Shown here piece after piece: positions 56,140 through 63,669 of a DNA stretch of 64,000 nucleotides; positions within the stretch are counted from its first letter, which is position 1; the number at the start of each line of letters is the position of its first letter. A program made the translations under genes and the position numbers. Origin of the DNA: an uncultured Geobacteraceae bacterium (GTDB lineage: Bacteria; Desulfobacterota; Desulfuromonadia; Geobacterales; Pseudopelobacteraceae). Location of the stretch: the NCBI GenBank assembly GCA_903901875.1, contig CAIUSO010000010.1, positions 18,813-82,812 of the forward strand, in the 5' to 3' direction. Under the pieces are notes generated by a model, which was not told where the DNA came from, made no database searches, and saw only the letters and a program-made list of their open reading frames with translations.

Positions 56140-57228
56140 TTATGCGTCAAGGGAAGATACTTCTTTAAATATATATTCAATGACGAGGAAGGCCTTAATA
56201 ATTTCCGGATCAAAGTGGGTCCCGGACTCCTCAATCAGCATCCCCTTAACGACTTCATGATCAAAGCCTTTTCTGTAACACCGATCTGAGCGCAACGCAT
56301 CGTAGCAATCGGCAACAGCCATAATCCTGGCTGAAAGAGGGATATTTTTTCCTACAAGACCATCGGGATATCCGGATCCGTCCCAGTATTCATGGTGATA
56401 CAGAGCTATCTCAATTCCCATGCCAATTAAATCATTGTCAGGATATTTATTGAAAACCATCTGCATATTTTCAGCACCAACGACTGTATGGGATTTCATC
56501 GTTTCAAATTCTTCTCTGGTCAACGAGGCAGGTTTAAGAAGGACGTTGTCGGGAATCGATATTTTACCGATATCATGCATAGGTGCTGCCTGTTGAATAC
56601 AGTCAATAAAAGCGGGCGAAATTGAAGCGGCATATGGCGAATCACTTGCTAACTGCCGGGCAAGCATTTCACAATACCGGCATACTCTTTCCAGATGGGC
56701 ACCGGTATCATCATCCCGTTGTTCAGCAAGTTTTGCCAGGGCAAAAATAGTGGCTTGCTGGGCCTCGGAAATCTTGCGGATTTTCTTTTCAATCATTTCC
56801 TGATATTCAAGTCTCAAGCGAAGGGTACTCAAGCTGAGGTGGGTATTTATCCTGATTTTCAGTTCTTCAATATGAAACGGTTTTGCAATAAAATCAACGG
56901 CACCAACCCCAAATGCCCTTATTTTGTCATTAATGCCAATATTGCCGCTCATGAAAATAACCGGAATATCTTTCAAGTGTTCAATCAGCTTGATGCGCTC
57001 ACACACCTGATAACCATCAAGTTCCGGCATGGAAATATCAAACAGAAAAAGATCGGGAACAAGCTCCAACGCCATGTCTAAAGCAGCTTTACCATCATTA
57101 CAGAGAAATACTTCCGTATTCGTTGAGGCAAAAGTACTTTTCAGTAGTGCAAGAATATCCATGTCATCATCGGCAACCAAAATCCGAGATGATTTCACAT
57201 TACGACTATATTTTGCAGTTAGTGGCAT
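56140..57228 (-). CDS. response regulator with HD-GYP domain (c-di-GMP phosphodiesterase-like)
   Basis: REC LVADDDMDILALLKS/LFDISMPELDGYQV; MHDIGKISIPDNVLLKP, YHHEYWDGSGYPDGLVGKNIPL. Confidence 0.93.
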   Translation of the reverse strand: MPLTAKYSRNVKSSRILVADDDMDILALLKSTFASTNTEVFLCNDGKAALDMALELVPDLFLFDISMPELDGYQVCERIKLIEHLKDIPVIFMSGNIGINDKIRAFGVGAVDFIAKPFHIEELKIRINTHLSLSTLRLRLEYQEMIEKKIRKISEAQQATIFALAKLAEQRDDDTGAHLERVCRYCEMLARQLASDSPYAASISPAFIDCIQQAAPMHDIGKISIPDNVLLKPASLTREEFETMKSHTVVGAENMQMVFNKYPDNDLIGMGIEIALYHHEYWDGSGYPDGLVGKNIPLSARIMAVADCYDALRSDRCYRKGFDHEVVKGMLIEESGTHFDPEIIKAFLVIEYIFKEVSSLDA

Positions 57229-58465: not shown

Positions 58466-60442
58466 TTACTGTTTCCGGGAAATAAAATCCCGCCTCGTTT
58501 CAGCAAGGGCAGTCATGATAGAGTTTGAAACCGTTTCAATTTCCTGCATGAGCGAATGAGCTCTGCTCTGGTTCCCGGCAGCTACCGCTGCAACGGCCTC
58601 TTTTGATAAGGAGTGAATACGCTCGTGGGGGCCGTCTATGGTCTTATACTTACTCAGATGGCCACAGATACTTTTACCGTCACTGTCATACCATTTTCCA
58701 AAGCGACAGGTATGATGGTCCGGAAGTCCACTGGCTTCCAGTTGTGTATCCCCAATCACCGCTGAACGAATTTTGTTGACAAACAAACGGTGATCATTTG
58801 CTGCTACAGTGAGCATAAGAACATCACTCTCCCTGGTTTTAAACATGCGAACAGTATTCTGTAGCTCCTCAGAAAGTTTATTTAACGCCACTGCCTCTGT
58901 CGATGTTTCATGGGAGGTTTTCGCAGCCTTATTAAATGCTCCCGTAATCTGATGAATATTAGTACTGATTTCACTGGTGGTAGCGGTCTGCTCCTCGGCA
59001 GCCGTGGCTATTTGATGTATCTGGTTCGTTACTTCACCAATTTGGTGTTGCATTTCCTGAAGTGCTTCACCAGAGCGGGCAGCCTCCCCAATTCCTTTAC
59101 TTACCTCCGTCACACCCAACTCCATGGCTTCTACGGCAATCTTCGTTTCCTTCTGGATAGCCTTTATCATTTCACCGATCTCTCGGGTTGCCCTTGTTGT
59201 CCTTTCAGCCAAAGCACGAACTTCGTCGGCAACCACGGCAAATCCTCTCCCCTGTTCTCCTGCCCGGGCCGCTTCTATGGCTGCATTGAGAGCGAGCAGA
59301 TTGGTCTGGTCGGCAATATCTTCAATAGTGCCGACAATGGCGCCAATCTGATCAGAACGGGCACCAAGGCTATCAATAACGGTTGCGGCACTTTGTACAC
59401 GATCCGCAATTCGATTCATTCCCGCTATAGTTGTCTGAATAACTGTCATACCTTCAGAAGCAAGTTCATTTGAATGCTGGGAACTGTCCGAAGCCATGGA
59501 ACAGTTTTGGGCAATACTGCTTGATGTTGCGGACATTTCCTCACTTGCCGTTGCAACTGAAGTCGCCTGTGATGCTGCGACTTCGATGCCTCTGGACATG
59601 TTCTGGGAAGATGCCTGGATAGCCCCGGCCGTTGCGGTCACGTTCACCGCAGAAAGAGCGGTACTGGCGATGAGTTGTTCGAGGGAATCGAGAAATCTGT
59701 TGAAATACCTGCTGACATTGGACAACTCATCACTGCCAGAAGCATCAAGACGCTTGGTCAGATCACCGTCCCCGTCAGACAATGCAAAAACATTTGTTAC
59801 AAATTCATTAATTTTGCGCATGATGGTCAGCTTAAGAATAACGAACAGAAATAGTATGCTCACAACCAGTGCAGCAAGAGCACACAACGCCATAACCACA
59901 CTCGACTGTTTTATCGCATCATACGCCTGCTCCACACTGGAACTCAGCTTTATGACACCAAGAAAGGGGCCATCAGTTGTATGGCATTGTTTGCAGCGTT
60001 CCTCGTTTGCAAGTGGAAGAAATGTTTCCAGAACATGGATTCCGTTTGATGAAAGTTCCTGATTTACGGTCTGTCCCGTCTGAAGTGCTTTAGTGACACT
60101 CGGATTATCCCTGGCTCCACTGGTTCGTTCAATCCCCTTACCGTTATAAATAGAAAGAGACAACAGCTGTTTACGTTCAGTAACGTCATGAATTTTTGCA
60201 TCAATCTTCTTCATGTCGTTGGCAAGCATATAATCTTTGATGTCATCGCCAATAATAAGTGCCGCATTTAAACTGTTTTTGATTTGTAGCAGTGTAAGTT
60301 GCTGTTTTGAGAGAATCAACGAGGTGCAACCAATGATTATCAAGGCTGAAACAATAGCGATGGAAGAGAAGAACACGATTTTCTGTGAGACTGAAAGAGA
60401 GATCCCCGTTTGGGGTGAAGTAGAAAAATCCTGATTTGCCAT
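58466..60442 (-). CDS. methyl-accepting chemotaxis protein with periplasmic heme-c (CXXCH) sensor domain and C-terminal CZB domain
   Basis: Two TM segments flanking [20 protein letters not shown] (CKQCH codons 59981-59995), HAMP, MCP hairpin [42 protein letters not shown]-terminal [23 protein letters not shown]...[14 protein letters not shown]. Confidence 0.9.
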
Positions 60443-60486
60443 GCATACCTCCCGGTATTATTATTGTTTATTGAAATATTTTATAT

Positions 60487-60521
60487 AAAAAAAACCTTTC
60501 AATGATCACAGAGAAAGGTTT
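60487..60521 (-). terminator. intrinsic terminator / riboswitch expression platform
   Basis: Minus strand AAACCTTTC-(12 nt)-GAAAGGTTT followed by TTTTT. Confidence 0.88.
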
Positions 60522-60530
60522 GTTTAGGAA

Positions 60531-60625
60531 CAGTCTCCCATTGGTAGCCCGGCTATCCGCATAACGGACCCGCAGCTTTGCGTCCCCAGGTTACCCTGAA
60601 TTTGCTTTTTACAGAGAAAAAATTG
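60531..60625 (-). ncRNA. GEMM-I class cyclic dinucleotide riboswitch (A20, GEMM-Ib type; predicted 3',3'-cGAMP)
   Basis: Minus strand AAAAAGCAAATTCAGGGTAACCTGGGGACGCAAAGCTGCGGGTCCGTTATGCGGATAGCCGGGCTACCAATGG; conserved GGGACGCAAAGC, GUAA-capped hairpin UUCAGG-GUAA-CCUGGG, GCCGGGCUACC. Confidence 0.9.
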
Positions 60626-60737
60626 TACACTATTTTATGGGATAATATACGCTTAATGATTTATGTCAATAGTTAAACTCCATGAAAAAATGAAAAACAA
60701 AAATAATAATAATTCCTTTTATCTGTTACCTCACCCA

Positions 60738-62418: not shown

Positions 62419-62838
62419 CTATCTAACTTTTTCCTTAAACATCATCAGCAACCTCTGGCATTTGGTCGGGTCGGTGGCAAACGAATTATCAGTAAGCGAG
62501 GTGTTCAGAAACTCACTATATCCGGGTAACTCATGGACATCGGCAGAAGTCAGATCGTAAAAACACATTGACCAATCGGGAAACTGTCGTTCGGACAGGG
62601 GACCCTGTAATAATGTTATCAATCCCTTGTGCCGCACATCCCGGCCGATCTTATCATGTAAAGCCCGAACCACCTGTTCATCACCTTCTAAAAGCTGCAT
62701 AAAATTACCTTTTTTATACAGCAACAAGCCACTGATGCCTGCGCTGGAATTATGTGCGCGGGATTTTATCAACAGTTCCACTAACTCATCAGGGGAAAAT
62801 GGTTTGACTGCTGAACTCACGTAAATGAGGAAATACAT
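62419..62838 (-). CDS. BLUF-domain blue-light photoreceptor
   Basis: MYFLIYVSSAVKPFSPDELVELLIKSRAHNSSAGISGLLLYKKGNFMQLLEGDEQVVRALHDKIGRDVRHKGLITLLQGPLSERQFPDWSMCFYDL; conserved Tyr, SRxxN, GISGLLLY, FMQLLEG Gln, W-S-M. Confidence 0.9.
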   Translation of the reverse strand: MYFLIYVSSAVKPFSPDELVELLIKSRAHNSSAGISGLLLYKKGNFMQLLEGDEQVVRALHDKIGRDVRHKGLITLLQGPLSERQFPDWSMCFYDLTSADVHELPGYSEFLNTSLTDNSFATDPTKCQRLLMMFKEKVR

Positions 62839-63030
62839 AGAGATAACCTCCATTGAGATATCTGATCAGACCGGCTCACGTACATCAATACTATTTGTGG
62901 GGTGGGCGAAGGGAAGCATGAGCGTAAAACTACACGTGTCTATTAATGTCCTTTTATCAAATAATGCTATCCTTATCACAAAAATATATTCTCTTCAACA
63001 GGAGTATTCAGTGTAGCCCAGATATCGTAA

Positions 63031-63669
63031 CTACACGGAGAGGTTGTGCTGAATACAGTAATTAATGATCTCAGCGGTGGTTTTCAAATTCAGCTTTATC
63101 AGAACACGGCTTCGATAACTGCTGGCGGTCTGAACGCTTATGGAAAGTTCCTTGGCAAGATTAGTCAATGTTTTCCCAGCGGTCAGCATACAGGCAACTT
63201 GTAACTCACGGTCCGACAGTGCTTCATGGACCTGTCCATATTCATTTTTATCAAAGACGGCTGCCGCAAGCATTTCAGCCTGTATCGGATTTATGTACCT
63301 TCGGTTGCTCAATGCTTTCTCAATCGCATCTTTTAGCTCGGTGGACGAACTTCTTTTGTTCACATACCCGGCAGCACCTGATCGCAAGGCACGCACAGCA
63401 TAATGCTCTTCAGGGTGAGTACTGAGAATAATCACCGGCAGCTTCGGATAATGCTGTTTAAAAAAGCTCAAGATATTCATGCCGCTCTGGTCTGGCAGGG
63501 ATAAATCCAAAAGCACCAGATTAAACTCACTGTCAGCAGCCATGTTCATTGCCTGTTGTCCGTCTTCTGCTTCATGAAATTCAATGTCTGCTCCGATTAG
63601 TTCAGTCAGGACGGTTATGACCCCCTTTCTGAACATTGCATGATCGTCTACCAGCAAAATCTTTATCAT
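63031..63669 (-). CDS. NarL/FixJ-family response regulator
   Basis: REC KILLVDDHAMFRKGVITVL/LVLLDLSLPDQSG; LuxR HTH LSDRELQVACMLTAGKTLTNLAKELSISVQTASSYRSRVLIKLNLKTTAEI. Confidence 0.93.
   Translation of the reverse strand: MIKILLVDDHAMFRKGVITVLTELIGADIEFHEAEDGQQAMNMAADSEFNLVLLDLSLPDQSGMNILSFFKQHYPKLPVIILSTHPEEHYAVRALRSGAAGYVNKRSSSTELKDAIEKALSNRRYINPIQAEMLAAAVFDKNEYGQVHEALSDRELQVACMLTAGKTLTNLAKELSISVQTASSYRSRVLIKLNLKTTAEIINYCIQHNLSV

Follow-up and report, generated by a model that had tools for sequence, protein, structure and literature searches.

A natural A20 variant on a GEMM-Ia riboswitch scaffold in the leader of a heme-c chemoreceptor gene of an uncultured Geobacteraceae bacterium

The leader of a heme-c chemoreceptor gene in an uncultured Geobacteraceae bacterium contains a genuine GEMM-I riboswitch in which an A occupies the specificity position 20 on a GEMM-Ia scaffold, so that it is a variant rather than a canonical GEMM-Ib riboswitch. 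The gene lies within a 64-kb stretch of DNA that was analysed as a whole and is here called the window. The explanation that we consider best, and to which we would give an even chance, is that this A20/C92 aptamer attenuates transcription of a periplasmic heme-c chemoreceptor, likely in response to cGAMP. It joins features seen in the DNA (the aptamer, its A20 and C92, the scaffold type, the terminator, the receptor domains and a Hypr-like gene) to a proposed ligand, switching direction and physiology. GEMM-I, GEMM-Ib and heme-c sensors are all known already; what is new is that a class-Ia scaffold naturally carries A20 and is combined with an OFF-type platform.

The aptamer and its place within GEMM-I

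A cmscan search against Rfam aligned the leader with the full RF01051 (c-di-GMP-I/GEMM-I) model (positions 1–87) at 61.8 bits, where the gathering score is 35 bits, with an E-value of 1.1e-9 for 64 kb and 4227 families, and this was the sole Rfam match at the gathering threshold in the whole window. The preliminary description had read a GEMM-I core in this leader and called for such an Infernal scan, which confirms it. It had also placed an A at position 20, and the covariance-model alignment, the method by which the pocket bases of the aligned aptamers were read, gives A and not G. The aligned aptamer reads AAAAAGCAAA-UUCAGG-GUAA-CCUGGG-GACGCAAAGC, and the features of the leader are collected in Table 1.

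Table 1. Features of the chemoreceptor leader and gene, in window coordinates
Feature	Position	Strand	Basis or remark
Sigma-70-like promoter, TTGACA-16-TATTAT	60642..60669	-	11/12 consensus matches; past the upstream MCP stop (60738)
P1 5' strand, UCUCU	60613..60617	-	Complementary to GGAGA 60538-60534
GEMM-I (RF01051) aptamer	60540..60616	-	cmscan
A at Vc2 position 20 (ligand-contacting, specificity base)	60606	-	cmscan alignment; base precedes GCAAA
C at Vc2 position 92	60544	-	Pairs with ligand guanine, role from PMC6274999 (C75 of 4YAZ)
P1 3' strand / antiterminator strand, GGGAGA	60534..60539	-	Pairs with P1 5' strand or UUUCUC(U) repeat
UUUCUCU copy in terminator 5' arm/loop, alternative GGGAGA partner	60510..60516	-	Pairing predicted for transcripts ending ahead of the terminator 3' arm
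Intrinsic terminator, AACCUUUC/GAAAGGUU + U8	60487..60520	-	Mean pair probability 0.99 free, 0.94-1.00 with P1 enforced
Ribosome binding site, GGGAGG	60448..60453	-	Read from sequence; precedes ATG at 60442
MCP: Mcp40H-20 heme-c sensor, HAMP, MCPsignal, CZB	58466..60442	-	Pfam PF21563, PF00672, PF00015, PF13682

While the GEMM-I family, A20, the terminator and the heme-c MCP of the preliminary description all stood, its filing of the riboswitch under the GEMM-Ib group of Geobacter did not. The window does share with Geobacter GEMM-Ib (4YAZ; Gm0970, Gs1761) the GEMM-I fold, A20, C92, a GNRA-type P2 loop, a leader terminator and a Geobacterales host with a Hypr-type GGDEF. However, its lower-P2 pairs are the Vc2-like G21-C46/C22-G45 rather than the C21-G46/U22.G45 of GEMM-Ib; in the Geobacter cGAMP aptamer 4YAZ it is C15-G40, or C21-G46 in Vc2 numbering, that adjoins A14 (PMC6274999). 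The same contrast appears in the pocket motifs, which read AGCAAA...GACGCAAA in the window and ACUAAA...GGCGGAAA in a control genome from the order set (G058) with eight canonical GEMM-Ib motifs and a Ser/GGDEY GGDEF. The class-Ia scaffold is that of Vc2 (3MUM) and of its G20A mutant (4YB1); Vc2 itself carries G20, with a preference for c-di-GMP, whereas the base introduced in the mutant is the window's natural one.

The expression platforms and targets differ as well. In the canonical GEMM-Ib of the control genome the 3' half of the aptamer doubles as a terminator arm, an arrangement that fits the ON behaviour published for GEMM-Ib (PMC6456294), whereas the window has a separate terminator, apparently of OFF type, and controls a chemoreceptor instead of cytochrome or pilus genes. 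One might still suppose a conventional GEMM-Ib ON switch, in which cGAMP would disrupt the terminator and raise receptor levels as in the Geobacter cytochrome operons, and for which A20, the Geobacterales lineage and the drop of published GEMM-Ib genes on gacA deletion (PMC6456294) would speak. We consider it improbable, because the window terminator, unlike that of the control genome, overlaps neither aptamer nor P1, and because pocket pair 21-46 differs.

Expression platform and predicted direction of switching

The leader runs from promoter through aptamer and terminator to ribosome binding site, the terminator standing between the last two. The intrinsic terminator that had been proposed to follow the aptamer was recovered with a mean pair probability of 0.99 in the full leader; it starts 20 nt past the aptamer, with arms at 60520-60513 and 60500-60493 and its U8 at 60494-60487. 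A simple terminator scan with a loop limit of 8 did not pick it up, because its loop exceeds that limit. In leader folding it coexists with P1, and every terminator pair keeps a probability of at least 0.94 when P1 is enforced. As the terminator forms equally well under this constraint, a ligand-stabilized P1 should be unable to disrupt it, and a separate, P1-compatible terminator makes the window most simply an OFF switch, as far as predicted folding can indicate direction. Such logic would resemble that of Cd1 of Clostridioides difficile, a transcriptional OFF switch in which ligand promotes the terminator state, although Cd1 has G at the position-20 equivalent, flagellar gene targets and another platform sequence.

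In the mechanism that we propose, RNA polymerase would initiate at the TTGACA/TATTAT promoter and the aptamer would then fold. Without ligand, GGGAGA would pair with the UUUCUC repeat and delay the terminator, leaving the transcript antiterminated and the gene ON; with ligand, GGGAGA would be taken up by P1, the terminator would form and receptor expression would drop. Folding predicts the GGGAGA-UUUCUC pairing while the 3' end of the transcript lies within the terminator loop, and when 15 riboswitches of this genome are taken together, the P1 3' strand complements the terminator 5' arm better than shuffles do (Fisher combined p 6.6e-5). The window antiterminator taken alone is weak (-5.4 kcal/mol, p 0.20), and the terminator is favoured at equilibrium in all leader folds, with or without P1, so switching would need to be kinetic. 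These equilibrium folds and the weak antiterminator would also suit a riboswitch in decay, unable to switch any more, whose terminator is constitutive, as would the riboswitch-free ortholog in the sister genome described below. Against that reading stand a promoter and ribosome binding site that are both intact and the intact conserved pocket residues of an aptamer of such a score, and we think it quite unlikely.

Ligand and the GEMM-I complement of the genome and order

An A20 on a class-Ia scaffold can accommodate cGAMP, as seen in the crystal structure of Vc2 G20A with cGAMP bound (4YB1; PMC6274999), and G20A GEMM-I has also served as a biosensor for c-AMP-GMP (PMC11352751). Position 20 is nevertheless a selectivity factor rather than a hard filter, and selectivity is also tuned by the lower-P2 pairs (PMC9262584), so that a cGAMP preference is plausible, not proven. 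The ligand would most likely be 3',3'-cGAMP supplied by a Hypr GGDEF of the Thr type whose gene lies elsewhere in the genome, with residual c-di-GMP binding possible. By our judgement of the sequence, and not by computation, a preference for cGAMP has slightly better than an even chance, binding of both c-di-GMP and cGAMP is possible but rather doubtful, and a c-di-GMP binder is unlikely.

The search of the genome for a Hypr-type GGDEF suggested in the preliminary description returned one candidate, L040 (G000:C45:37236-38324, plus strand), a GGDEF protein anchored in the membrane, which combines Thr at the base-recognition position with a GGDEF motif (GHFAGT...GGDEF). Diguanylate cyclases have Asp at this position, and natural GGDEFs with Ser/Thr there carry GGDE[F/Y] exclusively (PMC6456294); L040 shows just this combination and is alone among the 25 GGDEF matches of the genome in pairing Thr with GGDEF. 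All 19 of the orthologs that were read retain this Thr, and 62 of the 141 order genomes have a homolog. We regard L040 as a candidate Hypr-type cGAMP synthase.

The GGDEFs of the genome are mostly of the Asp type, so c-di-GMP is likely abundant, and A20 could then be a tolerated variant in a c-di-GMP or dual sensor, a Cd1-like OFF switch that would leave less receptor in sessile cells. We take this to be quite possible, if short of an even chance. The class-Ia pocket pairs of the window, the softness of position 20 as a filter (PMC9262584), the many Asp-type GGDEFs, the reported sensitivity of the OmcST operon riboswitch to both ligands (PMC6456294) and the OFF behaviour of Cd1 (PMC9262584) are all in keeping with it. 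Mere tolerance sits less easily with the presence of a Hypr candidate and with the frequency of A20, found in seven of the 18 GEMM-I aptamers here (one degenerate) and in five of the sister genome, above all other genomes of the order.

The host assembly (G000; 4.3 Mb, 169 contigs) has, besides these seven, five aptamers with G20, five with C20 and one with U20, and three of the G20 aptamers (L005, L010, L013) have U92. Most of the genes downstream encode chemoreceptors or sensors with PAS or receiver domains, the class of targets from which GEMM takes its name, and a second heme-c MCP follows the G20/U92 aptamer L005. Six aptamers, L001, L002, L003, L007 and L008 (C20) and L017 (U20), have a pyrimidine at position 20, which is very rare in the order; L001 and L008 share a contig and an orientation, the latter upstream of a papain-family protease gene.

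Pattern searches of the 141 order genomes, in which reversed-pattern controls gave zero throughout, found the canonical GEMM-Ib motif in 110 genomes, with none in the host or in its sister G033. A20 on a Vc2-like scaffold was found in 27 of the 141, with six sites in the host, five in the sister and 0–3 elsewhere, and C92 is kept in 46 of the 48 aligned A20/Ia aptamers of the order. C20 is rarer than A20-on-Ia (11 pattern matches, five of them in the host). Separately, G20/U92 is a common combination, present in 27 of 82 pattern-derived G20 aptamers and found at L125 in the sister and at many further Geobacterales loci besides the three of the host, and A20/U92 is nearly absent (1/48). This association is significant on distinct sequences (Fisher p 7.7e-6), but depends on clustering, with p 0.003 at 85% identity, 0.22 at 80% and no association at 70–75%. 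As a possible lead, G20/U92 might represent a mirror-image route to cGAMP recognition (G by G20, A by U92). A broader and, in our estimate, rather unlikely scenario is that the lineage lost canonical GEMM-Ib and rebuilt cGAMP sensing on class Ia through A20/C92, possibly also G20/U92, placing it as OFF control over chemoreceptors and sensors and not as ON control over cytochromes.

The chemoreceptor and the history of its locus

The MCP reading frame and heme-c motif of the preliminary description were correct in coordinates and motif. The encoded receptor has its CXXCH at residues 150-154 within PF21563, together with MCP signalling (domain E-values 6.1e-27 and 1.8e-47), and ends in a zinc-binding CZB domain. 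Its sensor matches PDB 3b47 and 3b42, the heme-c sensor domains of GSU0582 and GSU0935 of Geobacter sulfurreducens, with which it shares PF21563, CXXCH and MCP output, but the window receptor adds the C-terminal CZB and sits under a riboswitch. Identity to GSU0935 is modest, about 30% over the sensor; the best match to GSU0935 in the order set reaches 57%. Sensor domains of this type have been proposed to sense redox potential (PMC8396549), and a 2026 preprint argues for NO-sensor properties in Cache domains that bear heme and are joined to signalling modules (PMC12889525). The earlier label of a redox/heme chemoreceptor is fair, and the stimulus may be redox potential or NO. That mineral sensing is coupled to chemotaxis through the riboswitch, as was also suggested, we can only infer.

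None of 13 loci of the nearest receptor homologs has a riboswitch upstream. In the sister genome (locus L044) the orthologous heme-c MCP is 86% identical and has no riboswitch. The order of genes matches that of the window (kinase, LuxR response regulator, heme-c MCP, HD-domain regulator, kinase), with the BLUF gene and 4HB MCP of the window also absent. DNA similarity to the sister breaks off near 63038 and sets in again near 60473, between terminator and ribosome binding site, and window segment 60474-63037 (BLUF gene, 4HB MCP, promoter, riboswitch, terminator) is missing there; the promoter-riboswitch-terminator unit is therefore a lineage-specific gain or loss. The BLUF blue-light sensor protein is encoded at 62419-62853, between chemotaxis and response-regulator genes. 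Two genes downstream of the receptor, at 56140-57228, is a receiver-HD (HD-GYP-like) response regulator; HD-GYP proteins include cGAMP/c-di-GMP phosphodiesterases.

Position 20 alone is, on these grounds, insufficient for calling a cGAMP riboswitch, and a single genome with A20/C92, G20/C92, G20/U92, C20 and U20 aptamers provides a natural panel of how two bases relate to cyclic-dinucleotide specificity. If A20-on-Ia riboswitches do bind cGAMP, specificity for this ligand would have evolved more than once on one RNA scaffold, and cGAMP would affect motility sensing with a sign opposite to the one known for its effect on extracellular electron transfer.
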